This document shows positions 7,724-64,000 of a DNA stretch of 64,000 bases, one piece after another. Source of the stretch: an uncultured Thermoanaerobaculum sp. (GTDB lineage Bacteria > Acidobacteriota > Thermoanaerobaculia > Thermoanaerobaculales > Thermoanaerobaculaceae). How positions within the stretch are numbered: the first letter of the stretch is position 1; each line of letters opens with the position of its first letter. The notes under the pieces were generated by a model. That model was not told where the DNA came from and ran no database searches. It was given only the letters and a program-made list of their open reading frames with translations. The translations under genes and the position numbers were made by a program. Location of the stretch: NCBI GenBank assembly GCA_937934115.1, contig CALHAH010000015.1:186001-250000 (forward strand), written 5' to 3'.

Positions 7724-8254
7724 GTGAGGGTTTACACCCGGACCGGGGACGGTGGTTATACCGCTTTGGGTAGCGGTGAGCGTGTCCCCAAGTGGGAACC
7801 GCGAGTTTCCGCGTACGGTGACCTGGATGAGGTAAACTCTTGGGTGGGGATGTTACGGGCCGAGGGGGTCCCCTCCGAAGCGGATGCGCACCTGGAGAGG
7901 GCGCAACGCGCGTTGTTTTCGTTGGGCTCCGTGCTCGCGGGAAGCCCCAGGGGCTTTCTTGCTGCCGAGGCTTCCGATGTGGTTTGGCTGGAGAACTGGA
8001 TTGACCGTATGAGCGCGGAGCTACCGCCTCTGAGGAACTTCGTGCTTCCTGGCGGCAGTCGCGCCGCGGCCGTTGCCCACCTATGCCGGACCGTTACCCG
8101 CCGGGCCGAGCGGGCGGTAGCAGCCTTGGGCGCTAACGACGAGGTGGTAGGTGCGGCGGTGCGGTTTTTAAACCGTTTGGGCGACGCCCTCTTTGTCTTG
8201 GCGCGTTGGCTTAACCATCGGCAGGGCGGTCGCGAAGTCCTTTGGCATGAATAA
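7724..8254 (+). CDS. pduO: PduO-type ATP:cob(I)alamin adenosyltransferase
   Basis: A 176-aa PduO/MMAB-family enzyme, which transfers the adenosyl group of ATP to cob(I)alamin to make coenzyme B12. Signature elements are the N-terminal TRTGDGG ATP-binding motif, GDLDEVNSWVG, the CRTVTRRAER helix and LNRLGDALFVLAR near the C-terminus. The length is usual for the family. There is no Shine-Dalgarno sequence; TAGCAT lies exactly 6 bases before the GTG start, suggesting a leaderless transcript. An adenosylcobalamin-dependent enzyme is implied elsewhere in the genome, since none is seen here. Confidence 0.93.
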   Translation: MRVYTRTGDGGYTALGSGERVPKWEPRVSAYGDLDEVNSWVGMLRAEGVPSEADAHLERAQRALFSLGSVLAGSPRGFLAAEASDVVWLENWIDRMSAELPPLRNFVLPGGSRAAAVAHLCRTVTRRAERAVAALGANDEVVGAAVRFLNRLGDALFVLARWLNHRQGGREVLWHE

Positions 8255-8353
8255 CAACGGGGAGTCTGAGAGTAAGGGCTCGCAGGGCTTGGCCAACTTG
8301 CGGCAAGCACTGTGGGGCCGTGGTACGCCCTCGATGGGGGGCAGAGGGGAAGA

Positions 8354-9313
8354 ATGACCAGCGTGCAGTTACCTGAAAAAAGCCTTGAGGTGCTGTCGGG
8401 CAACCTGGAGGAGAACTTCCGTTACCTGGGCGAGCGCCTGGGGGTCCGTGTTCAGGCTCGCGGAGACACGGTGTTTTTGGCAGGGGAGCCGCAGGCGGTG
8501 GCTACCGCTGAACGTTTGCTTTCTGATTTGGGGATCCTGGTGAGCAGGGGTTACGCCGTGGGGCGCGAGGAATTCCGCACCGCGCTGCGGGTGTTAGAAG
8601 AGGACCCGGATGTGGATCTGGTGAACTTTTTCACCGACGCTACCATCCCCGAAAGCGTCAAGCGCCTTTTGGTACCGAGAAACTTGAAACAGCGCTTGTT
8701 CATCCAGGCGGTGGTAAAAAACGACATTGTGTTTGCTGTGGGTCCGGCGGGAACCGGGAAAACCTACCTGGCGGTAGCTTTGGCGGCGGCGAGCCTTGCG
8801 GAAAAGCGGGTGCGCCGCATTGTGCTCACCCGGCCAGCAGTGGAGGCTGGCGAGCGCTTGGGGTTCTTGCCTGGGGACTTGGAACAAAAGGTAAACCCTT
8901 ACCTGCGCCCGGTGTACGATGCGCTTTACGACATCCTGGGCTACGACAAGGTGGTCAAACACTTAGAACGTGGCGTCATCGAAATTGCACCCCTCGCCTT
9001 CATGCGCGGGCGCACGTTGAACGACTCCTTTATCCTTTTGGATGAAGCCCAAAACACCACCCCGGAGCAAATGAAGATGTTCCTCACCCGCATGGGGTTC
9101 CACTCCAAAGCCGTGATTACCGGCGACGTGACGCAAATTGACCTGCCGGCCGGAGCGTCCTCGGGGTTGGTGCAAGCCCGCCTGATCCTGCGCGATATTC
9201 CGGGCATTTGCTTTTTCGACTTTACCAAGGAGGATGTGGTCCGTCACCGGTTGGTGCAGCGGGTGGTGGAAGCGTACGAGCGCTTTGAGGCGGCAAAACA
9301 CGAACGACAGTGA
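8354..9313 (+). CDS. ybeZ: PhoH-family ATPase (YbeZ)
   Basis: A PhoH/YbeZ ATPase of about 319 aa. It has an N-terminal KH-like segment, a Walker A motif GPAGTGKTYLA and a Walker B region ILLDEAQNTTPEQMKMFL, then the family block VITGDVTQIDLP. YbeZ acts with the rRNA-processing endonuclease YbeY, whose gene lies two genes downstream, and the ybeZ-HD hydrolase-ybeY-corC-era order is widely conserved. ATG 8354 is chosen because AGGGG lies 4-5 bases upstream; an in-frame start at 8312 would add 14 residues without a better site. The stop overlaps the next start (GTGA). Confidence 0.92.
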   Translation: MTSVQLPEKSLEVLSGNLEENFRYLGERLGVRVQARGDTVFLAGEPQAVATAERLLSDLGILVSRGYAVGREEFRTALRVLEEDPDVDLVNFFTDATIPESVKRLLVPRNLKQRLFIQAVVKNDIVFAVGPAGTGKTYLAVALAAASLAEKRVRRIVLTRPAVEAGERLGFLPGDLEQKVNPYLRPVYDALYDILGYDKVVKHLERGVIEIAPLAFMRGRTLNDSFILLDEAQNTTPEQMKMFLTRMGFHSKAVITGDVTQIDLPAGASSGLVQARLILRDIPGICFFDFTKEDVVRHRLVQRVVEAYERFEAAKHERQ

Positions 9314-11586
9314 ACCTGCGCACACTTTCCCGCGGTCAGAAAACCGCCTCCCACCAGCGAAGAGGCGGCGAGTGGGGTCAGAAACGGCGACGCTTTCTCG
9401 CCCAGGCGTGGCTTTTGGGACCGGCGTTTGTGGTGTTGACCACTTTCTTGGTGGCCCCGCGGCAAACGGGCCATTACCCGCTCTTAAAACCTGGGGACAT
9501 TGCCCCCACAGACGTGGTTATTCACCGCGACGTCACCCTTCCTGACGTGGAATCCACCGAGCAAAAGAGGCGACGGGCGGGTTTGGATGTACCCCCGGTC
9601 TACGTTTTCGATCCTAAGGTAAGCGAGCAAGTGAAAGCCAAACTGGCGGCCGTCGTTGCCTTGGGGCAAAAGTCCGAGCATTACGATGCTTCGCGTCTGG
9701 TTTTGGAGCTATCGCAGGTGGTGGGTCAGCGTCTGGAAGCCCATGAGGTTCAGGTGCTGCGAACGCTACGGTTTTCCCAAGAGTTGCTGTTGGCTTTGCT
9801 GGATGTGGTGGACCAGGTGTACAGGCAAGGGGTGGTGGAAGACCGCGTGGAGTTATTGCGCTGGGCCGACAAGGGTATTACCGTCAAGGAGGCTGGCACC
9901 GACAAGGAGCACCTGCAGCTGGACGTGTTTCGTTTTATAGACGCTGCCACCCTGGCGGAGACCCTGGAACAGCGCTTGGCTGCCCTGCACATCGTGGACC
10001 GTCAGCACCGCCGACCTCTAGCCGCTTTCTTGGCTCGACTTATGCCTGCCAACGTGATTTTGGATCGCGGCGAGACCTTGTCGCGCAGGATGCGGGCAGC
10101 AGCTGGCGTTGAGGAGGTATCGGTGCACCTTAACCGTGGGCGCGTGCTTTTGCGCCGTGGGGACGAGGTGAGCCCGCAGGTAGCCCGGCTTTTGGAATCG
10201 TTGGCGGCTTCCGCACAGGGCCCACGCAGTTTTTGGCCAGTTGTGGGTGCCTTCGGCATGGCTTTGCTGGTGGCCCTCATGTGGTTCTTTTATTTCCGTC
10301 GCGAGCCGGTGGCAGAAAGCGAGCAGCTCGTGCGCTACGGAAGCGTGCTGGTGGTGCTTTTTTTGGCGCTTCTCGTGGAAGGGGCAGTGTCTTTTGTGGT
10401 GGGTAGGGTGGCAGCAGCGGTAATCCGCGAACCGTTTAACGAGGTTGCGGTGTATTGGCCAGCCCTCCCGCACGCCACCGGCCCGATTCTGGCCAGCCTC
10501 ATGTTTGGGCTTTCCGTGGGGGTCTTGTTTGCCGCCAGTCAAGCTGTGCTCGTGTCTTTGATGCTGATTTTCCCCGGACACACGGTGGCCTACTCCTTGC
10601 TGGCGGCTGTGGCGGCAGCGTTTGCCACGCAAAAGGTGAAAGAACGAAACGCCCTCACCAGGGTAGGGCTTTTTTTGGCCGCCTTTAACGTCTTTTGCGC
10701 GGTGACGTTACGCCTCCACAGCCTCCCTAACCCGCAACTTCAGGAGGTTTTGGCCAACACCGCCACTGCCGCTTTGGGCGGCATTATGGCCGCGGTTTTG
10801 GCAAGCTTCTTCCTTCCGGTTTTGGAGAGTGCTACCGGTACCATCACCGATATCCGCCTCTTGGAGCTTTCCAACCCCAACCTCCCTCTGCTTCGCCGGC
10901 TGGCCACCGAGGCCCCGGGTACCTTCCAGCACTCGTTGGCGATGGCCAACCTGGCGGAGGCCGCCGCCGAAGCCATTGGCGCGAACCCGCTTTTGGCGCG
11001 GGTGTGCTGCTACTACCACGACATTGGTAAGCTCATGCGGCCTGAGTACTTCATTGAAAACCAACGGGGAGGGCCCAACCCCCACGATCACCTGTCGCCA
11101 TGGATGTCGGCATTAATTGTGGAAAAGCACGTGAAGGACGGCCTGGAGTTAGCTCGTCATTACAAGCTTCCGGAACCTATCCGTGAAGCCATTGCCACCC
11201 ACCACGGCACCAAGCTCATCCACTTTTTCTACAACCGTGCCAAACAACAGGAAACCCCGGACAAGGGGGAGGTGGAGGAGCAGGAGTTTCGCTACCGCGG
11301 CCCTAAACCCAAGTCCAAGGAAATGGGCATCATCTTGCTTGCCGATGCGGTGGAAGCGGCGGCACGCACCTTGAGCGAAGCCACGCCGGGACGGGTCCAG
11401 AGCATGATCGAGCAAGTGATCAAGAAGGTCTTGGAAGACGGGCAACTGGACGAGTGCGAGCTGACACTGAAGGATCTGGAGAAAATTTCCGCTGCCTTTT
11501 CCTGGGTCATCACTTCGGCGGGCCACCACCGCATTGATTACCCAGGCTTCGACTTTAACCGGAGGGGCAATGGCCGGCAAGCTTAA
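9310..11586 (+). CDS. pgpH: PgpH/YqfF-type membrane HD phosphodiesterase (cyclic-di-AMP hydrolase family)
   Basis: A 758-aa 7TMR-HD protein. One N-terminal TM segment (about 33-53) is followed by an extracytoplasmic domain of about 250 residues, then multiple TM helices (about 310-520) and a cytosolic HD domain. The metal-binding motifs are visible: TFQHSLAMANLAEAA, YYHDIGKL (about residue 570) and IATHHGT. In Firmicutes this family hydrolyses cyclic di-AMP; whether this organism makes that nucleotide cannot be told from the window. The GTG start overlaps the ybeZ stop and the gene overlaps ybeY by 17 bp, so it belongs to the ybeZ-era operon. Confidence 0.9.
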   Translation: MNLRTLSRGQKTASHQRRGGEWGQKRRRFLAQAWLLGPAFVVLTTFLVAPRQTGHYPLLKPGDIAPTDVVIHRDVTLPDVESTEQKRRRAGLDVPPVYVFDPKVSEQVKAKLAAVVALGQKSEHYDASRLVLELSQVVGQRLEAHEVQVLRTLRFSQELLLALLDVVDQVYRQGVVEDRVELLRWADKGITVKEAGTDKEHLQLDVFRFIDAATLAETLEQRLAALHIVDRQHRRPLAAFLARLMPANVILDRGETLSRRMRAAAGVEEVSVHLNRGRVLLRRGDEVSPQVARLLESLAASAQGPRSFWPVVGAFGMALLVALMWFFYFRREPVAESEQLVRYGSVLVVLFLALLVEGAVSFVVGRVAAAVIREPFNEVAVYWPALPHATGPILASLMFGLSVGVLFAASQAVLVSLMLIFPGHTVAYSLLAAVAAAFATQKVKERNALTRVGLFLAAFNVFCAVTLRLHSLPNPQLQEVLANTATAALGGIMAAVLASFFLPVLESATGTITDIRLLELSNPNLPLLRRLATEAPGTFQHSLAMANLAEAAAEAIGANPLLARVCCYYHDIGKLMRPEYFIENQRGGPNPHDHLSPWMSALIVEKHVKDGLELARHYKLPEPIREAIATHHGTKLIHFFYNRAKQQETPDKGEVEEQEFRYRGPKPKSKEMGIILLADAVEAAARTLSEATPGRVQSMIEQVIKKVLEDGQLDECELTLKDLEKISAAFSWVITSAGHHRIDYPGFDFNRRGNGRQA

Positions 11587-52650: not shown

Positions 52651-54063
52651 ATGGGGGCGACGTCACCTTCCCAGGTTCAACCCGTTGACGGTGCGTCCGT
52701 GCGCGTGCCGTTTAGCGAATCGGCAGAGCGCGCAGTTCTGGGCGCCATCCTCAACGACGGAAACGCCTTTTACCGGGTGGTGGATGCCCTCAAACCCCAG
52801 GACTTTTACCTCGAGCCCCATCAGTTGGTGTTTCAGGCTTTTGCCCAACTGGCCCTGGAGAATACACCCATTGACCTGGTAAGCACGGTAGCCGCGATGG
52901 AACGCATGGGTACGCTTGCTCTGGTGGGTGGCCCCTCCTTCCTGGCTCAGCTGGCGCAGGACCTGCCAGACCCAGAAGCGGTGGAGCATTACGCCGAGAT
53001 CGTACGGGAAAAGGCCATTCGCCGCCAGCTCCTTAAGGTTTCCGGGTCGCTCATGGTGGAGGCGGGGCAAGAGGGAGGTCGCGCTCTCGACCTCCTCGAC
53101 CGCGTGGAAACCATGGTCTTAGAGCTGGCGGACCGCGCCATACAAACCGGCCCACGGAGGGTAAAGGACCTGGCCTACGCCGAGCTGGAGCACCTGGAAC
53201 GCGTCGCCAAATCCGACCACCCGTTTATTGGCTTGGAAACCGGTTTTCGCCGCTTGGACGAGCTCACCTCAGGGTTTAAGGAACAGGAGCTCATTGTCTT
53301 GGCGGCACGACCAGGGGTGGGGAAAACCGCCATGGCCCTCAACATTGCCTCCCACGTGGCCGTGCGGCGCAAAAAAAACGTGCTGTTTTTCTCCTTGGAA
53401 ATGTCGGCGTCCGCCTTGGTACGACGTTTGCTGGCAGCCCAAGCCAAAGTTAGCTTGCAAAAGATCATCAGCGGCCGAATTTCTTTTAAACCCGGGCGCT
53501 CCCCCAGCGATTTGGAGCGGCTGGTGGAGGGTGCCGATCATCTCGCTGAAGCCCCCTTGTGGATTGACGACTCAGCTTCTCTGTCGATCCTCGAACTGCG
53601 AGGCAAAGCCCGCAGGCTCATGATGGAACACGGCCTGGACTTAATCGTGGTTGACTACTTGCAGCTTTTAAGCTCAGGGCTCAAAACCGAAAACCGCACC
53701 CAGGAGGTTTCCGCCATCTCCCGAGGTTTGAAAGCTGTGGCGAAACAGCTCAACGTCCCCATCTTAGCCCTGTCCCAGCTTTCCCGGCAACCGGAGCGGC
53801 GGGGCGCCGACGCCCGCCCCCAGCTTTCGGACTTACGGGAGTCTGGCTCCATTGAACAGGACGCCGACGTGGTGATTTTCATCCATCGCAAGATTGCCCC
53901 GAAAGCCGAGGAGGAAAACATGGAAGAATCCCGGAAGGCTGAAATCATCATTGCCAAGCAACGCAACGGCCCCACGGACGCCTTCCTGTTGGTGTACCTG
54001 GAACCGTACACGCTGTTTACCGATCCCGAGTTCACCGATGAAGCCGCTGCTCCCGTTTTTTGA
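52651..54063 (+). CDS. dnaB: Replicative DNA helicase DnaB
   Basis: A 470-aa DnaB. The N-terminal helical domain has SAERAVLGAILND, the Walker A is ARPGVGKTAMAL, and FFSLEMSA, the Walker B VVDYLQLL and RESGSIEQDADVV are present. It unwinds DNA at the fork as a hexamer. No intein or insertion is seen. Its 3' end overlaps mlaE by 26 bp, coupling a replication gene to lipid transport genes, probably by genome compaction rather than shared function. Confidence 0.96.
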   Translation: MGATSPSQVQPVDGASVRVPFSESAERAVLGAILNDGNAFYRVVDALKPQDFYLEPHQLVFQAFAQLALENTPIDLVSTVAAMERMGTLALVGGPSFLAQLAQDLPDPEAVEHYAEIVREKAIRRQLLKVSGSLMVEAGQEGGRALDLLDRVETMVLELADRAIQTGPRRVKDLAYAELEHLERVAKSDHPFIGLETGFRRLDELTSGFKEQELIVLAARPGVGKTAMALNIASHVAVRRKKNVLFFSLEMSASALVRRLLAAQAKVSLQKIISGRISFKPGRSPSDLERLVEGADHLAEAPLWIDDSASLSILELRGKARRLMMEHGLDLIVVDYLQLLSSGLKTENRTQEVSAISRGLKAVAKQLNVPILALSQLSRQPERRGADARPQLSDLRESGSIEQDADVVIFIHRKIAPKAEEENMEESRKAEIIIAKQRNGPTDAFLLVYLEPYTLFTDPEFTDEAAAPVF

Positions 54064-54817
54064 GGCCGTCGGCCGCCGATGGGTGGCGGTTTTCGAGGAG
54101 GTGGGCCGGTTCTTTTATATCCTGCACAGCACCATCCTGTGGACCTTCCGCAAACCGTTCGATGTGCGGGAGTGGGTGCGGCAAATGGTGCGCGTAGGCG
54201 TGGAATCCGTGCCGGTGGTGGGGCTCACTGCCCTGTTTACGGGCATGGTTTTGGCGTTGCAAACCTACCGTGGCTTTGCCCGCTTCCATGCGGAAGGGTT
54301 CGTGGCTTCGGTGGTTTCCCTTTCCCTCACGCGGGAGCTGGCACCGGTACTGGCCGCCCTGATGATTGCCGGGCGCATTGGTTCCTCCTTTGCCGCGGAA
54401 CTGGGAACCATGCGGGTCACCGAGCAAATAGACGCCCTGTACGCCATGGCCGTGGAACCCGTGCAGTACTTGGTGGTGCCGCGGGTGGGAGCAGCCACGG
54501 TCATGCTTCCCTTTCTTGTGGTCCTTGCTGATGGCATTGGGGTTTTTGGCGGTTATGCGGTGGCGGTAGGGCTTATGGGCGCAAACCCCGTGGTTTACTG
54601 GGACAAAACCTTCCAGTATTTAGACCTCAACGACGTGTTTTCTGGGCTCATCAAAGCCGCGGTTTTTGGGCTTATTTTGGCAGTGACCGGTTGTTCCAAG
54701 GGCTTTTTTACCACCGGTGGAGCGGAAGGGGTGGGACGCGCCACCACCGCTGCTGTGGTCATGGCCTCGCTAGTTATCCTGCTCTCGGATTTCTTCCTCA
54801 CCAAAATTTTGTTTTAG
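54038..54817 (+). CDS. mlaE: MlaE-type permease of an MCE lipid transporter
   Basis: A 259-aa, five-TM permease. It carries the family blocks SVPVVGLTALFTGMVLALQ, LTRELAPVLAALMIAGRIGSSFAAELGTMRVTEQIDAL and FGLILAVTGCSKGFFTTGGAEGVGRATT. With MlaF and an MCE protein it moves phospholipids between membranes. ATG 54038 is inside the end of dnaB. The three genes mlaE-mlaF-mlaD are tightly packed; mlaA, mlaB and mlaC are absent here. Confidence 0.93.
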   Translation: MKPLLPFFEAVGRRWVAVFEEVGRFFYILHSTILWTFRKPFDVREWVRQMVRVGVESVPVVGLTALFTGMVLALQTYRGFARFHAEGFVASVVSLSLTRELAPVLAALMIAGRIGSSFAAELGTMRVTEQIDALYAMAVEPVQYLVVPRVGAATVMLPFLVVLADGIGVFGGYAVAVGLMGANPVVYWDKTFQYLDLNDVFSGLIKAAVFGLILAVTGCSKGFFTTGGAEGVGRATTAAVVMASLVILLSDFFLTKILF

Positions 54818-54826
54818 GGAGGCGGC

Positions 54827-55609
54827 ATGCAAGAACAAAGCTCCGGCAGTTCCCGTCGCCTTCCTAAAATTGCCGTGATAGATCTGTGGAAGTCCTTTTC
54901 CGGCAAGGAGGTGTTGCGAGGCGTCAACCTAACCGTGGCTCCCGGTGAATCCCTGGTTATCGTCGGCGGCTCAGGCGCGGGAAAAAGCGTGCTCTTGAAG
55001 CATCTCATTGGCCTTATCCAACCCGATCGCGGTCATGTGATCGTAGACGGCGAAGACCTGGCCTGTGCCGACCCCGAAAGGTGCCTCGCCATTCGCCGAA
55101 AATTCGGCATGTCTTTCCAAGAAGGGGCGCTTTTCGACTCCATGAACGTTTTCGACAACATCGCGTTCCCCTTGCGCCGTCACACGCGCATGAGCGAAGA
55201 GGAAATTGCCGAAAGGGTGCGAGAGTGCTTAAACCTCGTGCACCTTTCCGGTATCGAAAAAAAAATGCCCGCACAGCTTTCGGGAGGCATGCGGCGGCGG
55301 GTGGGCTTTGCCCGCGCTATTGCCTTAAAACCCGAGATCCTGCTCTTTGACGAACCCAACACCGGACTTGACCCCATTACCGCTGCGGCCATTGACAGGG
55401 TCATCATGGAAATGCGTGACAAACTGCCGGTGACCATGGTCACCATAACCCACGATATGAGCTCGGCGTTTCGCATTGCTGACCGTATTGCCATGCTGCG
55501 GGACGGGAAAATCGTGGCGGTGGCTGCGCCCGAGGAGTTTCGCACGTTGCCTGACCCTTACGTACAAGGCTTTCTAGCGGGACAGCCGGTAGATGAGGAG
55601 GTGGCATGA
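54827..55609 (+). CDS. mlaF: MlaF-type ABC ATPase
   Basis: A 260-aa ATP-binding subunit with Walker A GGSGAGKSVLL, Q-loop FGMSFQEGALFDSMNVFDN, signature QLSGGMRRRVGFARA, Walker B ILLFDEPNTGLDP and switch His in ITHDM. It is preceded by GGGAGG. It energises the MlaE permease encoded upstream, and its stop overlaps the mlaD start (ATGA). Confidence 0.95.
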   Translation: MQEQSSGSSRRLPKIAVIDLWKSFSGKEVLRGVNLTVAPGESLVIVGGSGAGKSVLLKHLIGLIQPDRGHVIVDGEDLACADPERCLAIRRKFGMSFQEGALFDSMNVFDNIAFPLRRHTRMSEEEIAERVRECLNLVHLSGIEKKMPAQLSGGMRRRVGFARAIALKPEILLFDEPNTGLDPITAAAIDRVIMEMRDKLPVTMVTITHDMSSAFRIADRIAMLRDGKIVAVAAPEEFRTLPDPYVQGFLAGQPVDEEVA

Positions 55610-57081
55610 GTCAAACCGCAAAAGTTGGCGCCTTCATGTTGGTGGCGCTGGTGATTTTGGCCGTTTTTATCATCAAGATCGAGGAAATCCCCTTTGGCGC
55701 CAAGGCTGGTCGCCAAACCGTGCAGGCGGAGTTCCCATCGGTGGCTGGACTCGACGTAAAAAGCCCAGTGCGCATTGCGGGCGTACGGGTTGGAATTGTG
55801 GAAAAAATTGAGCTGGCCGGTACCCGGGCGCGCGTTACGCTGTCCCTGGACCCGCAGGTGCGGCTCCACCAAGGGGCGTGGGCCGAGGTCACAAGCCTCG
55901 GAATGCTGGGGGATAAGTACGTGGAGCTGCACCCTGGGCCCCTGGAGGCGCCGCCGCTACCCCCAGGTGTCGTGCTCTCTGGGGAAAGTCCCGTGGGTTT
56001 TGACCAAATTTTGAAAACAGCAGGCGAAATTGGGGGTGACATCAAGGAGGTCACGGCCAGCCTGCGGCGAGCCTTAGGGGGCGAGGCTGGGGCTGCCAAG
56101 CTCGAGGAGATTTTGGAAAACGTTCGCCAGCTCACCGCAGAAACCCGTAATCTCGTGGCGGCCAACCGTGCCGACGTGAGTGCTACCATCGAGAACTTCC
56201 GGGCTTTTTCTGCCACCCTCCGCGACGAACTCCCTAAGCTTGCCGATAAACTGCAAAAGCTCGCGGACAACGTAGATGCCGTGCTGGCGGAGAACCGCAG
56301 CAACGTGTCCGACACCATCGCCAACCTCAAGGACGTGTCGGGGAGGCTGCGAACCTCCGCCGACAACTTAAGCCAAATCACCACCAAGATCGCTAAGGGC
56401 GAGGGGACTATCGGCAAGCTCGTGAACGACGAAGAAACCGTGAACAACCTCAACAGCACCTTGAAATCAGTGGAATCCGGCGTGCAGAGCTTGAAAAACA
56501 CCATTGGGCGGGCCGAACGCTGGCGTTTAGACGTGACCCTGCGCACGGAGAGCCTGCCAAAAGCCGATGACTCGCGCTCAGCCTTTGGCTTTGACCTCCA
56601 CACCACCGAACGGCGGTTTTTCCGTCTCGAGCTCGTAGATTCCCCTTACGGCCGGGTTCGCAATACCCGAGAAACCGTCACCACCACCTTCCCCGATGGT
56701 CACCGCGAAACCTACGTGCAGGAAAAGCAAAAGATCACCGATGCCTCGACGGTTAACGCCCAAATTGGCTACCACTGGGGCACTACCACGGTGCGGGCGG
56801 GGCTTTTCGAGTCTGAAGGCGGCTTTGGCGTGGATCAGGCCCTGCTGCAAAACAAGCTCAAGCTTACGTTGGAAGCCTACGACTTCAACCGTGACATCAA
56901 GCCCCCCCACCTGCGGCTGGAAGGCCGGTACTTCCTCACCCCTAACATCTTTGCCTTTGCCGGTTGGGACGACCCCCGCTGGTCCTCGCGCTCGTCTTTG
57001 CTGGTGGGGGCGGGCATTACCTGGAGGGATGAGGACCTCAAGTATCTTTTGGGGACCGCAGCCTCCTTGGGTGGCAAGTGA
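55606..57081 (+). CDS. mlaD: MCE (MlaD) protein with long helical stalk and probable C-terminal outer-membrane beta-barrel
   Basis: A 491-aa protein, much longer than E. coli MlaD (about 180 aa). It has an N-terminal TM helix (about 7-22) and one MCE domain (about 35-125, VQAEFPSVAGLDVKSPVRIAGVRVG). About 150 residues of helical heptad-like sequence follow (LPKLADKLQKLADNVDAVLAENRSNV; DNLSQITTKIAKGEGTIGKLVND). About 185 C-terminal residues then alternate polar and hydrophobic in strand-like runs (STVNAQIGYHWG, TVRAGLFES, KLKLTLEAYDFNRD, HLRLEGRYFLTPNIFAFAGWDD, SSLLVGAGITWRDEDLKYLLG). I read the last part as a small outer-membrane beta-barrel, so one chain could span the periplasm. Confidence 0.85.
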   Translation: MSQTAKVGAFMLVALVILAVFIIKIEEIPFGAKAGRQTVQAEFPSVAGLDVKSPVRIAGVRVGIVEKIELAGTRARVTLSLDPQVRLHQGAWAEVTSLGMLGDKYVELHPGPLEAPPLPPGVVLSGESPVGFDQILKTAGEIGGDIKEVTASLRRALGGEAGAAKLEEILENVRQLTAETRNLVAANRADVSATIENFRAFSATLRDELPKLADKLQKLADNVDAVLAENRSNVSDTIANLKDVSGRLRTSADNLSQITTKIAKGEGTIGKLVNDEETVNNLNSTLKSVESGVQSLKNTIGRAERWRLDVTLRTESLPKADDSRSAFGFDLHTTERRFFRLELVDSPYGRVRNTRETVTTTFPDGHRETYVQEKQKITDASTVNAQIGYHWGTTTVRAGLFESEGGFGVDQALLQNKLKLTLEAYDFNRDIKPPHLRLEGRYFLTPNIFAFAGWDDPRWSSRSSLLVGAGITWRDEDLKYLLGTAASLGGK

Positions 57082-57111
57082 GGCAAACGTAAGGATGGGC
57101 AAGGCGTCGGC

Positions 57112-58440
57112 GTGAGCGTGTGGGAGTGCATCAACTGCGGCCAAACCACCAGTAAGTGGCTAGGCCGGTGCCCTGCCTGTGGTGCCTTTAACACCTTCGC
57201 GCCACAACCGGAAAAGCGGCGCACCCGCACCCGTTCCCCTGAGCCCGTGCCTTTAGACGCCATTGCTTTAGAAACTCTCCCCCGACGTTCCACCGGTCTG
57301 CCCGGCTGCGACCGGGTTTTGGGTGGCGGCTTGGTGCCCGGCTCGCTGGTGCTTTTGGCTGGCGAACCGGGGGTTGGCAAATCCACCTTGCTCCTGCAAA
57401 TTGCAAACCGTATCGCTGAGGGTGGCAAGGTTCTGTACGCCAGTGCTGAGGAATCAGCGACACAGGTAGCCCTCCGCGCCCGCCGGCTCGCCTGCCAGCA
57501 CCCCAGCGTGTTGCTTTTGGCCGAATCCACGGTGGAGGCCGTTCTCGAGGTGGTAAGCCGACTCAAACCATCACTTTTGGTGGTGGATTCGGTGCAAGCC
57601 ATGCGCTCGGAAAACGTCCCATCCATTCCCGGCAGCGTTACACAGGTACGAGAGGTGGCCGCCCGGGTGGCGGAAGCCGTGAAGAAAAACGGGCCACCGG
57701 CAATCATGGTGGGCCACGTAACCAAGGACGGCACGGTGGCGGGACCCAAGTCACTGGAGCACCTCGTGGACGTGGTGTTGGAGTTTTCCGGAAACACCGC
57801 CCACGCCAACCGCCTGCTGCGGGCCACCAAGAACCGATTCGGCCCGGCCCTGGAGCTGGCCCTCTTTTCCATGGGCGAAATGGGGCTTGAAGAAATTACC
57901 AACCCATCCCAGGCGCTTTTGGCCGATCGCGTGCCGGGAGCCCCGGGCTCGGCCGTAACTGTGGTGCTGGAAGGGCTCTCACCGCTTCTGGTGGAAATCC
58001 AAGCGCTGGTTTCCCGCTCGCCGCTTGTGAACCCGCGCCGAGTGGCCCAGGGCTTTGACGCCGGCCGTTTGGCTTTGCTTTTGGCGGTTGTAGAAAAACG
58101 AGCAGGCGCGAAGCTCGCCGATCGCGATGTGTTCGTAAACGTAGCCGGTGGTCTCGAGGTGGTGGAACCGGCGGCCGACTTAGCGGTGGTGGCGGCCGTG
58201 CTTTCCTCGCTGGCTGATGTCCCCCTCCCGGACGATGCGGTGTTTTTTGGGGAAGTGGGCCTTCTGGGGGAAGTACGAGCGGTGGGTCGCGGCGACGCCC
58301 GCCTGCGGGAAGCGCAGGCTTTGGGTTTTCGCCGCGCGTTTACGGCCAAAAGCGCTTCCCTGGAAGCAAATCCAGCCTTACGTGTGGCGGCCTTTGGGGA
58401 CATTGCTGCTCTCGCCAGGCACTTGAAGTTGCTACACTAA
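57112..58440 (+). CDS. radA: DNA repair protein RadA (Sms)
   Basis: A 442-aa RadA. It has an N-terminal zinc finger (ECINCGQTTSKWLGRCPACG), a RecA-like ATPase with GEPGVGKSTLLLQ and the RadA-specific KNRFG motif (TKNRFGPALEL), and a C-terminal Lon-like domain. It helps branch migration and processing of recombination intermediates. The GTG start is weakly supported but gives Cys6 at the usual place. It lies 30 bp after mlaD. Confidence 0.95.
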   Translation: MSVWECINCGQTTSKWLGRCPACGAFNTFAPQPEKRRTRTRSPEPVPLDAIALETLPRRSTGLPGCDRVLGGGLVPGSLVLLAGEPGVGKSTLLLQIANRIAEGGKVLYASAEESATQVALRARRLACQHPSVLLLAESTVEAVLEVVSRLKPSLLVVDSVQAMRSENVPSIPGSVTQVREVAARVAEAVKKNGPPAIMVGHVTKDGTVAGPKSLEHLVDVVLEFSGNTAHANRLLRATKNRFGPALELALFSMGEMGLEEITNPSQALLADRVPGAPGSAVTVVLEGLSPLLVEIQALVSRSPLVNPRRVAQGFDAGRLALLLAVVEKRAGAKLADRDVFVNVAGGLEVVEPAADLAVVAAVLSSLADVPLPDDAVFFGEVGLLGEVRAVGRGDARLREAQALGFRRAFTAKSASLEANPALRVAAFGDIAALARHLKLLH

Positions 58441-58457: not shown

Positions 58458-60551
58458 ATGGACGAGGCCCTCACACCCAAGGTCGTGGCCCTGCTCAACG
58501 ACCTGGAAGCCTACAGACGAGCTTTGCGCTTGTACCCCGCAGGTCACCCCGGCTTGGAACCGCTCAAAGGCCGGCTGCAAAGGGACATTGGCGCACTCCC
58601 CGAAGAGCCCCTGGTGCGGCTGGTGCTGAACCCAGACCGGGTTTTTTGGGGGGAGCACGAGGTAGTGCCACCGGCTGAAGCTCCCGGGCGCCGCCTGGTG
58701 CAGCTCCTCTTCCAGCTGGGTATAGCGGTGGTGCAAATGAGTTTTCCCGAGGCCGCAGAGGGCTTGCTGGCTCTCACGCAGTTCCTCGCCAACCTGGGGG
58801 AAACCCCCCGGGAAGCCGATCGCCAAACGCTGCTGGCGGCTGCTGCGGACTTTCCTGGCGTGCAGCTGTTTCCTTTGGACCTCTCCGGGGTGCAAGTGGT
58901 CACCGAGGAGGAGGTGAGCAGCAAAGAAGGCTCGCGGTTGGCGTGGCCGCAACTGGCCAAGCTTCTAGCTCGGGATTGGGCTTTTGCCTGGCCGGGAAAG
59001 CTCAAGGAAGGGCTTTTGGACGCCGGTTCGGTGGTGGAACTGGCCAACACCTTGCCCGATCCCGGTCCCCTGTTTGAGTACCTTTTCCGTTCGGTGGCGG
59101 ATGCCTTGGAGGCATCACCTCACGCGCAGCGGCCGCTTTTGGTCTCCGAGCTGCGGCTGTTTCTTGCGGATCTTTGCCGCCTTTTGCAACCCGAACGCCG
59201 CAGCTTGGCGATGGCTGCCTTCCTCCGCCAGCCGCGGCTCGCTGACCTCCTGCGTAGCCGAGACCCCATCGCGACTTGGGAAGCTGTCTTGGACGGTGTG
59301 GAGCTCCTGCTGCTTTACGATGAGCCGGTGCCCCCTGCCATTCAGCGCCTGCTGGGAGAGTTGGCTTCTCCGGAAATCGTGACCGACATGCAAGTCCCCG
59401 TGGAGATCGTCAAGCGAGCGCGGCAGCTTTTGCCGCGGCTACCCGTCCCTGGCGAACAGGCCCCGGCGGTCGTCCCAGAGGCCAGGGGCAAGGCCACGGT
59501 GGATTGGTCGCAAATGCCTTGGGTGAGGGAGCTTTCCGCAGCTTGTGCCGAAAGCGAAGTTGCGGCCCATTTCGTGCGGATCCTGGGCGAAATGCTCACC
59601 CTCTGGCCGGGGGCCCACGCTGGTGAGGCAGCCGCCGCCCGCTTGGCGGAGGTCTTTGTGGATGCGGTAGCCGCTGGCGATTACCCCACGGCCCAGCGCG
59701 TAGCCCCTTTGGTGGGGGCCTCGCGCAGTCCCCAGTTGCAAGAAAAGGCCATGCAGCGGGCAGTAGAAGTGTTGGTGGCAGCCTTAGGTACCAGCGACCA
59801 CCAGCACCACCCCACCCTTACCGCCATCCTCGCCGGTTTGGGAGAAAAAGCGCTGCCCGCCATCCTGGAAGCCCTGGCCGCCGAGGAGCGGCTCTCTGTG
59901 AGGAAGCGCCTCTTGGAGGCCGTGCTCCGCTTTGGCCCGCGGGCGGTTCCCTACCTGCGTCCGCTTTTGGAGGACGACCGCTGGTACGTGGTGCGCAATG
60001 CGGTGTTTTGCTTGCGGAAATTGCAAGACAAAGCCATTCTCCCAGCCATCAAACGCCTTCTCCCCCGCTTTCGGCCCCAGGTGGCCGCGGAAATTCTCAA
60101 AACCCTGGTGGCCTTCGAGGATCCGGAGTGGCTGCCACTTTTGCGGCGGGAGCTGGAAACCGAGGACGACGAGCGCGCCCGCGCTGCCCTGGGTGTGGCT
60201 TCGCGTATCCGCCACCCCGCGGTAGTGCGGGCTTTGGTGGAGCGGCTGCGGGCGCAAATGGGCATGAAGCTGCGGGAACCCATCACCTTAGACCTCATTC
60301 GCGCCCTTGGCCGTCTGCGAGACGCCCGCGCCTTACCGCTGCTGCAGGAAATCCTCGATCTCAAGCAGTGGCGCTACCCGTTTACCCTTGCCCCGCTACG
60401 TCGCGAGGCAGCTATGGCCATTGCCCAGCTGGAAGGGGCTGAGGCCCAGCGTCTCGCTCACAAACTTGCGGCCGGTAAGGACCGCGAGCTTGCAGCAGCG
60501 GTGCAGCAAGGGAAAAGTTTGGCGGCAACGCGGGAAGAGGAGGAAGGGTGA
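58458..60551 (+). CDS. HEAT-repeat protein with shared N-terminal 'LYPxxHP' module
   Basis: A 697-aa protein. The N-terminal 130 residues (ALRLYPAGHPGLEPLKGRL; FWGEHEV; LVQLLFQLGIAVVQMSF) match the N-terminus of the HD-GYP protein encoded next, so both carry the same uncharacterised module. The C-terminal 300 residues are HEAT-like repeats (FGPRAVPYLRPLLEDDRWYV; RNAVFCLRKLQDKAILPAI; IRHPAVVRALVERLRAQ). There is no signal peptide, so it is probably cytosolic. Its stop overlaps the HD-GYP start (GTGA). Function unknown; a scaffold in a signalling complex is plausible. Confidence 0.75.
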   Translation: MDEALTPKVVALLNDLEAYRRALRLYPAGHPGLEPLKGRLQRDIGALPEEPLVRLVLNPDRVFWGEHEVVPPAEAPGRRLVQLLFQLGIAVVQMSFPEAAEGLLALTQFLANLGETPREADRQTLLAAAADFPGVQLFPLDLSGVQVVTEEEVSSKEGSRLAWPQLAKLLARDWAFAWPGKLKEGLLDAGSVVELANTLPDPGPLFEYLFRSVADALEASPHAQRPLLVSELRLFLADLCRLLQPERRSLAMAAFLRQPRLADLLRSRDPIATWEAVLDGVELLLLYDEPVPPAIQRLLGELASPEIVTDMQVPVEIVKRARQLLPRLPVPGEQAPAVVPEARGKATVDWSQMPWVRELSAACAESEVAAHFVRILGEMLTLWPGAHAGEAAAARLAEVFVDAVAAGDYPTAQRVAPLVGASRSPQLQEKAMQRAVEVLVAALGTSDHQHHPTLTAILAGLGEKALPAILEALAAEERLSVRKRLLEAVLRFGPRAVPYLRPLLEDDRWYVVRNAVFCLRKLQDKAILPAIKRLLPRFRPQVAAEILKTLVAFEDPEWLPLLRRELETEDDERARAALGVASRIRHPAVVRALVERLRAQMGMKLREPITLDLIRALGRLRDARALPLLQEILDLKQWRYPFTLAPLRREAAMAIAQLEGAEAQRLAHKLAAGKDRELAAAVQQGKSLAATREEEEG

Positions 60552-61684
60552 AGCCCGAACGCTGGGAAGAGCTGGTGCTTTCCGTGCTTGCGGAGCTGGC
60601 AAGCGGTCTTACGGCCATGGCCCTTTACGGCTCTTCGCACCCACGAGCAGCGGAAAGCCTGCGCCACCTTAAGGCCCTCCTGGAACAGCTTCTCGCTGCC
60701 CAACCCGCCCTGGATCTGGTGGTGCTGGGGGAGGAGTTGTTTGTGGATGAGCGCCCCTTCACCCGATCCAGCCGTCATGCCGCAGCGCTGCTCCGCCGGC
60801 TTTCCCGCCGGGGCGTGGAGCACGTGAGTTTTCGCGCGGGTGTGGCCGAAGAGGAGCTTAAGACCTTTTTGCAGGAGGTGGCAACCGGCGAAGACAGCCC
60901 CGTGCGCTCCCAACCCCACATTTTGGTGGGCAAGGTGGAACTGGCGGAAGAAGCATTGGGAGGCCCCGACCGCGAGCATGGGAGGGTTGGGCACGGCCAT
61001 TTGCCTGCGGTTCGCGATCGGATTACGCTTTTGGCGCAAATCTTCGTGGATTTTGCCACCAGCGGTTCCCTGGCCGTAGGCGATTGCCACCGCGTTATCG
61101 AGTCTCTCTGGGAGCTCTTGGAGCAAGACCCGCAACCCATGGACCATATGGCGCCGTGGGAAGGGGAAGAGCGGTGGGCAGCGGTTCATGCCCACAACAC
61201 TGCCGTGCTGGCCATGGGTATGGCAAAGCTCGGTGGGCTTTCCCGGGGGCCAGTGGCCGAAGTTGGCATCGCTGCCCTTCTTCACGATGTGGGGAAGCTG
61301 TTCATGCCCGAGGAGGCTCAGCTGCGGGAACTATCCCTTTCCGGGCCAGAGTTGGAGCTGGTGCTGGATCATCCCATGGAGGGTGCTACGGCTTTGCTCA
61401 AGGTGCCGCACTTGACGCCGTTGGCAGTCATTGTGGCTTTCGAACACCACCTCCACTACAACGGCACCGGCTACCCCCGCCTTTCCCGCCCCCGGCGCCC
61501 GCACCCGGCGGCACGGCTGGTAAGCGTGGCGGAGGCGTTTTCGGTGCTGGTAACCGCCCGGGGGTACCGCGGCCTTACCACCCGCGAATCCTCGGTGGCT
61601 TTCCTGGCGGAAAGGGCGGGTAGTGTGTACGATCCCGGCATGGTGCAAGCGCTGCAAGAGCTCGTCCTTGGCGAAGGCGCTTAG
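60548..61684 (+). CDS. HD-GYP-like phosphohydrolase with the same N-terminal module
   Basis: A 378-aa protein. The N-terminal module (MALYGSSHPRAAESLRHLKA; EELFVDERPF; LLRRLSRRGVEHVSFRAGV) resembles that of the HEAT protein. The C-terminal HD-GYP-type domain has VHAHNTAVLAMGMAKLGGL, ALLHDVGKLFMP, DHPMEGATALL and AFEHHLHYNGTGYPRL. The metal-binding HD and both later His sites are kept, but the canonical HHExxDGxGYP reads HHLHYNGTGYP, so cyclic-di-GMP hydrolysis is plausible yet not assured. It starts at GTG overlapping the HEAT gene. Confidence 0.85.
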   Translation: MKPERWEELVLSVLAELASGLTAMALYGSSHPRAAESLRHLKALLEQLLAAQPALDLVVLGEELFVDERPFTRSSRHAAALLRRLSRRGVEHVSFRAGVAEEELKTFLQEVATGEDSPVRSQPHILVGKVELAEEALGGPDREHGRVGHGHLPAVRDRITLLAQIFVDFATSGSLAVGDCHRVIESLWELLEQDPQPMDHMAPWEGEERWAAVHAHNTAVLAMGMAKLGGLSRGPVAEVGIAALLHDVGKLFMPEEAQLRELSLSGPELELVLDHPMEGATALLKVPHLTPLAVIVAFEHHLHYNGTGYPRLSRPRRPHPAARLVSVAEAFSVLVTARGYRGLTTRESSVAFLAERAGSVYDPGMVQALQELVLGEGA

Positions 61685-61709: not shown

Positions 61710-64000
61710 CTATTCCACAAAGTAGCCGGCCACCGTGCGCACGGAAACGCCAGGCTTTTTCACCTTTACCGTTACCGAGCGGAACGTACCCGCGGGAGCA
61801 TCGCTAGCAGAGCTGTACGCCAAGAGGTACTGGCTGCGCAACTCCCTCTCGATTTGCCCGTAGACCGGTTGTAAATTGGGCGGAACGGGCAAAAAGAAAG
61901 CCTCCCCACCGGTGGCTTTTGCCAGCCGCGAAAGCTGGGAGCGGGCCTTTACCGCGGTCAGAGGTACCCCGATGGCAATGGTGTACACCGTAACGCCGCT
62001 GCGCTGCGCAAAATCCAAGGCCCGTTCAAAAGGGGCTCGAGAAGCGGTGTCCTCGCCGTCGGTGAGCACCACCAGCGCCCTGCGTCCACGTACGCCGGAA
62101 AACTGGAAAACACCGTAAATCACCGCGTCCCAAAGGGCCGTTTCCCGCTCGGCACGCAAGGTAACCAAAGCTCGCTCCAGGCTGCCAAAATCGGCGGTAA
62201 AAGGGGCCAAGAGGACGGGTCGGTCAGAAAAAGCAATGACGAACGCCCGGTCTTTCGGGCGCAGGAGGCTTTTGACGAACCCTAGAACTACCTTTTGCAC
62301 TTCTGGCAGTGTCTTTTCCATGGAACCCGAGGTATCAATGACCAGTCCCACGCGGATGGGCAAGTCCTGTTCTCGGGAAAAGTGAAGGAGCTCTTGGGGG
62401 ACGCCTTCCTCGAACACCGCAAAATCCTCTTTTCTCAAGTCGGCCACAGGCTTTCCCCATCGATCCAGCACCAACACCGGCAACTCCACCGCTTGCACCC
62501 GCACCGTGGAGATAAACTGCGGGGCGTTCACCAGCTGCACGTCCTCAGCTTGGCTGCCGTCAGAAAGCACCGCCAGGGCCCGCACGTAACCCAGCTCTTT
62601 GCCCAAACGCACCGGCAGCACCGCAGAAAAAGGCGAGCTGTAAAGGGTCGCCAGGTGTTGGTCGTTAAAGTAAAGCTCCACGCGCTCCAGTTTCTGATCC
62701 GAGGGAACATTGACGGATGCATGTACCGAAAGACCCTCAGGGCGCTGGTCAGCCTTCGTAATTGGGCCCAGCCGTACAAAAAACCGCTCCCGTCCCACGT
62801 TAAGCACCACCTCGGCCCGGTCCAGCTCACCTCCTTTCTGGTCGTAGGCCACAGCCGTCACCGTGGCCAACCGTGGCAGCGGCCCCAGGTCCAGCTCCAC
62901 GTCAAAGGGGGGGCGATTCTTTGTGAGCACTGCCTTGCCATCCAGCAGAAACTCCACCTTGGCAACACTGGCATCCGCCAGCGCGGTAAACCGCTGCACG
63001 CCGGCAACACCTTCCCCTTGTGGGCCTAGCAGCGTGAGCAACTTTTCTTTTGCGTGGGTTGGACCGCCTGCCGCAGGCGTGAGGTCCCAGTCCTCGGGTA
63101 GCTGCACCGTAAAGGGGAGCTCCACCACCCCCGCCCGCTTTCCGTGGGAGTCGGCCACCTTCAAACGCAAGGTATAGTCGCCGGCCCGCAGCTCCCTTTC
63201 CACCACCAGCGGCAAGACCTGGGAATCGGCAGGAAAGGTAAAGGCGTACCGGAAGCGGTCGGCCATGTCTCCGGCGCGGGCCACCTCCCCCACCACGTCC
63301 AGCTGCACCACCTCCGCTTCCCCCACTTTGGTCGTAACCAAACCAGCTCGCGGTACCTCACAGGCAAAACGCACGATGCCCTTGGAACCCCGCCGACCCA
63401 CCACCTCCACCCGCGGTGCAAACTCGAAAGGCTCGGCGTCTTTGGGCAGCAACGTAGAGAAGGCCAAAAACCGCTGCTCCACCGATTCCTTCCCCAGGCT
63501 TGTGGTTTCCGCCACCAAATGCTCCAGCCTTTGCCTCACCCCCGGATCGGAGAGCCAGTACTCGGCCGCGGCCAGGAGATTGAGGAGCTCGTCCACGTTT
63601 CCACAGCGGAACTCCGGGCGTTCCAGGCGGCTCATGGTGGGACGGCGCAGAGCTTGTTGCGCTGTGGGGGTGTAAAGAACCCACCGGGTTTCAAAGGGGT
63701 CCCACATGCGAAACCGCCCCAGACCGTAAGGCTTGTAGAAAAGAAGCGTCACGCCCTGCCCTAACCCTGGGATATAGGCGTACCGCCAAAACTCCAAGGG
63801 GTAAAAAACCTCTTGGCAATCCACCGGTAGCCGCGCGGTGGGCGGGCCATGGAGGAGCAAGATCCGCGCCCGGTCCTCGGTGGTGTTGCCGAATTCTTGC
63901 CGGCACGTTTGCAGGCGATCCTCATAAACCTTCCGGAAGCTTCCCCCCATCCCTACGTGCTCGCCCCAGATTTGCCATAGGCGGTTTGCAAACTCCTCGC
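61710..64000 (-). CDS. GWxTD-like and VWA domain protein of acidobacterial type (5' end beyond window)
   Basis: The frame stays open to the right edge, so the N-terminus is missing; an internal ATG lies at 63950. The visible part (about 763 aa) begins with a GWxTD-like region (EEFANRLWQIW; FRKVYEDRLQTCRQEFG; RARILLLHGPP), then beta-rich Ig-like segments. A VWA domain has the MIDAS motif DTSGSMEKTLPEV, TALWDAVIYGVFQF and VVLTDGEDTASRAPF, closely like the VWFA-related family frequent in Acidobacteriota. It is probably exported. The role is unknown; adhesion or envelope assembly is a guess. Confidence 0.82.
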   Translation of the reverse strand, partial: EEFANRLWQIWGEHVGMGGSFRKVYEDRLQTCRQEFGNTTEDRARILLLHGPPTARLPVDCQEVFYPLEFWRYAYIPGLGQGVTLLFYKPYGLGRFRMWDPFETRWVLYTPTAQQALRRPTMSRLERPEFRCGNVDELLNLLAAAEYWLSDPGVRQRLEHLVAETTSLGKESVEQRFLAFSTLLPKDAEPFEFAPRVEVVGRRGSKGIVRFACEVPRAGLVTTKVGEAEVVQLDVVGEVARAGDMADRFRYAFTFPADSQVLPLVVERELRAGDYTLRLKVADSHGKRAGVVELPFTVQLPEDWDLTPAAGGPTHAKEKLLTLLGPQGEGVAGVQRFTALADASVAKVEFLLDGKAVLTKNRPPFDVELDLGPLPRLATVTAVAYDQKGGELDRAEVVLNVGRERFFVRLGPITKADQRPEGLSVHASVNVPSDQKLERVELYFNDQHLATLYSSPFSAVLPVRLGKELGYVRALAVLSDGSQAEDVQLVNAPQFISTVRVQAVELPVLVLDRWGKPVADLRKEDFAVFEEGVPQELLHFSREQDLPIRVGLVIDTSGSMEKTLPEVQKVVLGFVKSLLRPKDRAFVIAFSDRPVLLAPFTADFGSLERALVTLRAERETALWDAVIYGVFQFSGVRGRRALVVLTDGEDTASRAPFERALDFAQRSGVTVYTIAIGVPLTAVKARSQLSRLAKATGGEAFFLPVPPNLQPVYGQIERELRSQYLLAYSSASDAPAGTFRSVTVKVKKPGVSVRTVAGYFVE

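Follow-up and report, generated by a model that had tools for sequence, protein, structure and literature searches.

A window of 64,000 nucleotides from an uncultured Thermoanaerobaculum sp. (contig CALHAH010000015.1, part of a 2.42-Mb draft genome; "the window" is this whole stretch of DNA) carries two overlapping genes that raise a question: why should a HEAT-repeat protein and an HD-GYP enzyme, encoded one directly behind the other, start with the same N-terminal domain? An initial annotation had proposed this shared module, reading it as a sign of hetero-oligomerisation or of a response to one signal, with the HEAT repeats as scaffold and the HD-GYP domain as effector. Our answer, to which we give a probability of about 0.5, is that the pair constitutes a two-protein phosphodiesterase system for cyclic di-GMP (c-di-GMP), in which paralogous N-terminal domains would join a HEAT scaffold to an HD-GYP enzyme.

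Both open reading frames (ORFs) lie where the initial annotation had placed them and overlap by 4 bp (Table 1). An overlap of the same length is present in the nearest named relative, Thermoanaerobaculum sp. SKYB76 (Acidobacteriota; locus L032, HEAT end at 753, HD-GYP start at 750), whose HD-GYP protein is 78% identical. The N-terminal pattern is likewise as described: L-Y-x3-H-P falls at Y26/H30/P31 of the HEAT protein and Y27/H31/P32 of the HD-GYP protein, and is followed by a strand containing FWGE (HEAT) or FVDE (HD-GYP) and then, in both, by LLxxLxxxG(I/V). The HEAT protein also contains HEAT_2 (44.7 bits, Pfam cut-off 27.7) and HEAT_PBS (26.7 bits, cut-off 20.9) matches within residues 467 to 634, and the HD-GYP protein contains an HD_5 match (67.4 bits, cut-off 27.2), with the HD-GYP domain at residues 219 to 363.

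BLASTP of the window HEAT protein against the window HD-GYP protein finds no similarity in the N-terminal region, and thus, recognition of the domain similarity needs profiles. With the window HD-GYP protein as query, phmmer matches the N-termini of HEAT proteins from relatives over residues ~10 to 114, with a best E of 4.1e-11 (L020). A profile made only of HEAT-protein domains, with the window left out, recovers the window HEAT protein at residues 6 to 131 (E 8.5e-12) and the window HD-GYP protein at residues 8 to 115 (E 6.8e-23), and has zero matches among reversed decoys. The HHpred-type check that the initial annotation called for, run as a profile-profile comparison, is significant: hhalign of 26 HD-GYP-side against 34 HEAT-side domains, window excluded, gives a probability of 99.7 and an E of 1.4e-26 over 123 columns (9.4e-26 when the window is included). 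The HD-only profile qualifies this evidence, since it matches 33 of 35 HEAT domains and misses the window HEAT protein at E <= 1; the window HEAT copy is therefore a diverged member, recognisable only via its relatives. The shared domain spans ~115 residues, and its most conserved positions are the Y, H, and P of YxxxHP. By sequence comparison, both proteins begin with one homologous domain that bears an LYxxxHP signature.

An AlphaFold2 (AF2) model of the domain from the HD-GYP copy (135 residues, five sequences) is compact, with a mean predicted local distance difference test (pLDDT) score of 80. Its elements are helices at 3 to 27 and 32 to 51, strands at 54 to 60 and 63 to 66, a helix at 76 to 87, a strand at 92 to 96, and a helix at 101 to 113. 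In the AF2 model of the HEAT protein, made from an alignment of 2 sequences, the shared domain is poor (pLDDT blocks 26 to 57). No Pfam model matches more than 1 of 27 or more than 1 of 31 domain members (best E 0.0018), neither window N-terminus has a Pfam match, and comparison with NCBIfam and PDB sequences gave no relative of the domain. Foldseek of the domain model against PDB folds reaches a best E of 0.85, with no convincing solved match. VIA-align of the same model gives, among the structures listed, a best Z of 5.0 for FliS (70 residues, 2.8 A), and the FliS rows, at Z 3.6 to 5.0, may reflect a common helical arrangement alone. Two candidates were dropped: a match to Octarellin (0.0012), which is a designed protein matched over 37 residues only, and the sequence RWYVVRN as a functional HEAT motif, which is present in 16 of 59. 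Assignment to anti-phage defence asks for a PADLOC match over most of the protein; the matches, in 6 proteins, are limited to brief HD or HEAT segments, the best (2.7e-13, L033) covering ~100 residues of a 1972-residue model, and the window HEAT protein has none. The view that no named system fits this pair agrees with searches of the open-access literature, Pfam, NCBIfam, PADLOC, and PDB, subscription papers and other domain libraries being outside that scope. Searches of open-access papers on HD-GYP, HEAT repeats, cyclases, phosphodiesterases, and c-di-GMP gave none on such a pair; PMC7824862 mentions both HD-GYP and a HEAT repeat, in passages unrelated to the pair, and the two terms also co-occur in PMC3071791 and PMC3826837.

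Within its own genome, the domain is carried by exactly two proteins, the window pair. At an E of 1e-5, 107 of 297 Acidobacteriota genomes contain it, as do 97 of 148 from a second phylum (that of L033), which is treated as distinct since its 148 genomes share none with the 297. An even number of domain matches is found in 62 of those 107 Acidobacteriota genomes and in 78 of the other 97, and in the second phylum, 88 of the 150 matches listed have a listed partner within 3 kb. Gene order was compared over loci that form a non-random sample: L034 to L053 were picked from HEAT matches, L079 to L118 from domain matches, and L137 to L156 (n=20) as seemingly unpaired or odd. The 126 carriers in 63 wide loci comprise 58 HD-GYP proteins, 62 HEAT proteins, and 6 of neither type. 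Among the latter, L048 and L081 have HEAT repeats in an adjoining frame, L091 is cut by a contig end, and L103 to L105 encode a partner in which HEAT repeats are detected neither by our profile nor by Pfam.

Pairing, the second point on which the initial annotation could have been refuted, is conserved in this survey: 57 of the 58 domain-bearing HD-GYP genes lie on the same strand directly behind a HEAT carrier or, at a contig or frame break, a HEAT fragment, and the distance from the HEAT stop to the start of the HD module ranges from -18 to 185 nucleotides (nt), with a median of 6. The sole unpaired carrier, L109, is a HEAT/HD-GYP fusion (7857 to 9506). Its residues 132 to 371 are 50% identical to the N-terminal half of a HEAT partner and residues 372 to 542 are 66% identical to the HD-GYP domain of an HD partner, while the HEAT repeats and the HD protein's own copy of the domain are gone; with a single draft genome as its source, the fusion could be an assembly error, although it lies on a contig of 147 kb. 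The 20 odd loci include 11 pairs, together with 6 HEAT-only loci and 3 cut by contig ends. Partners absent from the genome listing were recovered from the locus DNA, for instance at L137 to L140, where all four HEAT frames encode 800 to 803 amino acids (aa) and the HD-GYP of L140 is split across two frames. Tandem double pairs (L052, L053, L099, L100, L118) keep the HEAT/HD alternation. Among plasmid records, 523 match the HD-GYP protein of L082 and 21 match the HEAT protein of L033, in each case 0 over 80% of the length, and viral contigs give no matches. As judged from gene order, the HEAT-first pair is a fixed, co-inherited cassette in two phyla. As a separate observation, at the HEAT-only loci L049, L050, L051, and L117, a non-GYP HD-domain gene on the same strand runs into the HEAT gene from upstream.

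This distribution bears on the chief rival explanation, in which the shared domain would act in sensing or homodimerisation, each protein would be homo-oligomeric, and both would answer one signal with no contact between them. A shared sensor would be expected to look like this, with one domain attached to two outputs, YxxxHP is conserved in both kinds of protein, and HEAT-only loci exist. N-terminal sensors are also common on HD-GYP proteins, PmGH of Persephonella marina having a GAF domain (PMC4159591). However, no other output type is recognised among the 126 carriers, of which 120 are HEAT or HD-GYP proteins and 6 are broken, cut, or unrecognised. Sensor domains usually spread across outputs, and both the adjacency in 57 of 58 cases and the L109 fusion fit a complex better. 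We consider independent action of the two proteins doubtful, although it is the strongest of the alternatives.

The history of the two copies was followed in a tree of 122 domains, which has few columns and many unresolved forks. On it, 4 changes suffice for the HEAT/HD label, against a mean of 40.6 after shuffling, and the phylum label takes 12, indicating that HEAT-type and HD-type domains are mostly two old groups with both phyla inside each. Partner distances correlate with an r of 0.71 to 0.75 over 51 pairs (the highest of 1000 permutations being 0.14), the nearest neighbour is identical for both partners in 30 of the 51 pairs, and in L039 and L036, from Acidobacteriota, the nearest relatives of both partners belong to the second phylum. 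Co-varying distances and shared neighbours would be expected of a pair that is inherited or transferred as one unit.

The closest solved relative of the enzyme by sequence is PmGH (4mcw, E 1.3e-14), whose numbering is used here to compare the 58 cassette HD-GYPs with the 7 other HD-GYPs of the window's own genome; metal-ligand roles and HD-GYP subfamilies are taken from passages of Bellini et al. (PMC4159591). Out of 58, the ligands are kept as follows: H189 in 57, H221 in 58, D222 in 58, H250 in 57, H276 in 57, H277 in 56, and D305 in 54, with E in 2 more. With E accepted beside D at D305, 53 of 58 retain all seven positions; K225 is present in 56, and GYP is intact in 48, window included. 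In the window enzyme, six ligands are identical to those of PmGH and the seventh, D305, is E; L032 has D. On these residues, the second protein has a C-terminal HD-GYP domain that retains its metal ligands and is predicted to hydrolyse c-di-GMP. The E185 position is occupied by Y or W in 49 of 58 (Y in 45), which places most cassette enzymes with the Y/F subfamily. The window enzyme has W-A-A, lacking the carboxylate at E185 and the subsequent T-G that mark the trinuclear (E/D-T-G) subfamily. For Y/F-type HD-GYPs, a binuclear rather than a trinuclear centre has been predicted (PMC4159591), and the cassette enzymes probably belong to this subfamily and have such a centre. As an observation apart, at L104, L105, and L113, where the partner has no Pfam HEAT repeats, the HD-GYP side has lost GYP and the metal ligands.

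These same positions admit another role for the enzyme, that of a trigger enzyme: chiefly a c-di-GMP receptor or interaction partner with little turnover, whose message the HEAT protein carries. Such a role would suit the window's own substitutions (E for D305, E for D183, and N in DGxGYP), the altered GYP or ligands of some lineages, and the finding that PmGH E185A and D305A are impaired though not dead (PMC4159591). Yet a pure scaffold would not need the seven ligand positions so widely kept, and we judge this role unlikely. The residue before HH is E in 56 of 58 cassette enzymes and in 0 of the 7 others in the genome. It marks the cassette group, and it could also hint at another cyclic dinucleotide as substrate, e.g. 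3',3'-cGAMP, for which HD-GYP enzymes named as specific exist (PDB 5z7c). The presence of GGDEF genes beside the pair argues against this, and we regard a substrate other than c-di-GMP as quite improbable.

In the 63 loci, GGDEF genes make up 7 of the 120 nearest neighbours of the pair, 2 of the 111 second neighbours, and 0 of the 375 more distant genes (nearest versus more distant, Fisher p 4e-5), an enrichment of diguanylate-cyclase genes immediately next to the pair. Pfam confirms the GGDEF neighbours in L082, L083, L084, L096, L105, L138, and L146. The order in L083 is histidine kinase, REC-REC-GGDEF, HEAT, HD-GYP. At L138, a gene for a GAF-GGDEF protein leads into the start of the HEAT gene, an arrangement shared by L137 and L139. 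A REC-PAS-GGDEF gene in L082 and L084 and a PAS-GGDEF-EAL gene in L096 lie directly downstream of the pair; at L146, which lacks an HD-GYP, the HEAT gene is followed by a REC-GGDEF gene. The window's own genome has 9 GGDEF, 8 HD_5, and 2 PilZ matches and thus holds a c-di-GMP network.

Proteins that are made together and have paralogous starts most simply pair through those domains, and hetero-oligomerisation via the shared domains is the best inference for this cassette. The paralogous domains would bind one another, or assemble into a mixed oligomer, and so anchor the HD-GYP enzyme on the solenoid of the HEAT protein. This solenoid, in turn, would dock the phosphodiesterase on a target, perhaps a partner diguanylate cyclase, and would gate its activity, so that c-di-GMP could be made and destroyed locally, giving local control. 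Homology, catalytic residues, and co-expression rest here on sequence; binding, docking, gating, substrate, and output are what we infer. The interpretation offered in the initial annotation is partly supported: the shared module is borne out, and a HEAT scaffold with an HD-GYP effector fits the modelled solenoid and the retention of the metal ligands. Discussion of HD-GYP proteins usually concerns REC, GAF, or other sensors that belong to the same polypeptide. Here, the likely regulator would be a second protein, its start paralogous to the enzyme's own start, in a pair kept over two phyla. The pair is a concrete candidate for control of local c-di-GMP pools in Acidobacteriota, and the domain is worth naming on proteins that are otherwise annotated only by their HEAT or HD-GYP part. 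More tentatively, and with less confidence than in the two-protein system itself, the cassette may represent a widespread undescribed c-di-GMP machine, whose unnamed domain, either already duplicated when the sampled lineages diverged or passed between them as a unit, links one HEAT scaffold to one HD-GYP enzyme. In some operons this machine would include a kinase and a diguanylate cyclase of its own, and synthesis, breakdown, and reading of c-di-GMP would all take place at a single site.

Several observations weigh against a dedicated two-protein phosphodiesterase. The HEAT gene occurs without HD-GYP in 8 of 63 loci (L040, L045, L049 to L051, L111, L114, L117; L112, cut by a contig end, is not counted) and in 6 of the 20 odd loci (L144, L146, L152 to L155), and thus, the HEAT protein can do without an HD-GYP partner. 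The partners in L102 to L105 and L113 keep the shared domain and have no HEAT repeat by Pfam. GGDEF neighbours are confined to 8 of the 63 loci and 4 of the 20 odd ones, and none is found at the window. The window enzyme itself has the three substitutions listed above at D305, D183, and DGxGYP, and with 10 of the 58 enzymes differing in GYP and 5 in their ligands, activity may be absent from some members. Shared ancestry alone also yields correlated partner distances.

Neighbourhoods other than those with GGDEF genes vary widely, and the dnaB, mlaF, MCE, and radA neighbours of the window are common to close relatives only. At 52651 to 58440 of the window, dnaB, an MlaF-like ATPase and an MCE protein (a lipid-transport set), and radA all run co-directionally into the pair. 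The order dnaB-mlaF-MCE-radA-HEAT-HD is common to the window and genome G144, and G262 has MCE-radA-HEAT-HD, an arrangement that would fit a role of the pair in replicating or repairing DNA, alongside radA and dnaB in the operon. In no other searched locus does radA adjoin the pair, while the pair persists; a RadA/DnaB function was rejected because this context is confined to close relatives, and we regard it as highly improbable. On the other side, a VWFA-domain protein (acidobacterial, TIGR03436, 8.8e-59) at 61710 to 63998 on the minus strand is convergent with the pair and adjoins it in L032 and L034 too. Elsewhere, an MshEN-domain protein is encoded directly upstream of the pair in L143 (4538 to 5047), and a thermolysin-family (M4) peptidase gene lies directly downstream in L043 (5744 to 7405) and L100 (13586 to 15283). 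The MshEN family includes c-di-GMP binders.

Table 1. Coordinates, in the window, of the HEAT/HD-GYP gene pair, its domains and motifs, and the upstream radA gene
Feature	Position	Strand	Basis
HEAT protein gene with shared domain	58458..60551	+	ORF, ATG, 697 aa; HEAT_2 1.7e-11, HEAT_PBS 6.3e-6
Shared N-terminal domain, HEAT copy	58473..58850	+	Residues 6-131; HEAT-only profile without window, E 8.5e-12
YxxxHP motif, HEAT copy (Y26-P31)	58533..58550	+	Y invariant, H and P at least 90% in HEAT-side alignment
Predicted HEAT alpha-solenoid, residues ~430-696	59745..60545	+	HEAT_2 matches; AF2 model, pLDDT blocks mostly 79-93
4-bp overlap, HEAT stop/HD-GYP GTG start	60548..60551	+	ORF positions
HD-GYP protein gene with shared domain	60548..61684	+	ORF, GTG, 378 aa; HD_5 1.7e-18
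Shared N-terminal domain, HD-GYP copy	60554..60892	+	Residues 3-115; HEAT-only profile, E 6.8e-23
YxxxHP motif, HD-GYP copy (Y27-P32)	60626..60643	+	Y, H, P nearly invariant in HD-side alignment
Predicted HD-GYP catalytic domain (H, HDxGK, H, EHH, GYP)	61187..61654	+	Residue alignment with relatives and PmGH
radA (sms)	57112..58440	+	TIGR00416 2.1e-145; 17 bp upstream of HEAT gene; context, outside the conserved pair

Comparison with known systems places the cassette beside several of them. With PmGH (4mcw; passages of PMC4159591), it shares an HD-GYP domain with H189, HD, H250, HH, K225, and GYP. Unlike PmGH, the cassette enzymes have an unnamed N-terminal domain that is neither GAF nor REC, an aromatic residue at the E185 position, and EHH instead of xHH, and a HEAT-protein gene almost always adjoins the HD-GYP gene. 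The Y-T-F/Y motifs of the cassette resemble the Y-T-Y and F-T-F clusters of the Y/F subfamily described in PMC4159591, whereas the window has W-A-A; the passages of that paper on the subfamily contain neither a HEAT partner nor such an N-terminal domain. The unconventional HD-GYP protein Bd1817 (PDB 3tm8) matches the window protein in sequence (E 1.5e-7). According to passages of PMC4159591, Bd1817 lacks the GYP tyrosine and activity, whereas the window protein keeps GYP.

For the partner, the nearest comparison is to HEAT/PBS-lyase-like repeat proteins, with which the window HEAT protein shares its HEAT_2 and HEAT_PBS repeats. Its N-terminal shared domain and the long helical region in its middle set it apart from them. 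Against NCBIfam models of phycobilin lyase/NblB, it scores 33.7 bits, far below the cut-off of 300. RpfG-type complexes, as described in passages of PMC4159591, join HD-GYP and GGDEF proteins, a link that in the cassette is known from gene neighbourhood only. In contrast to those complexes, the cassette has the HEAT protein as its constant partner, and a GGDEF gene adjoins it only sometimes.

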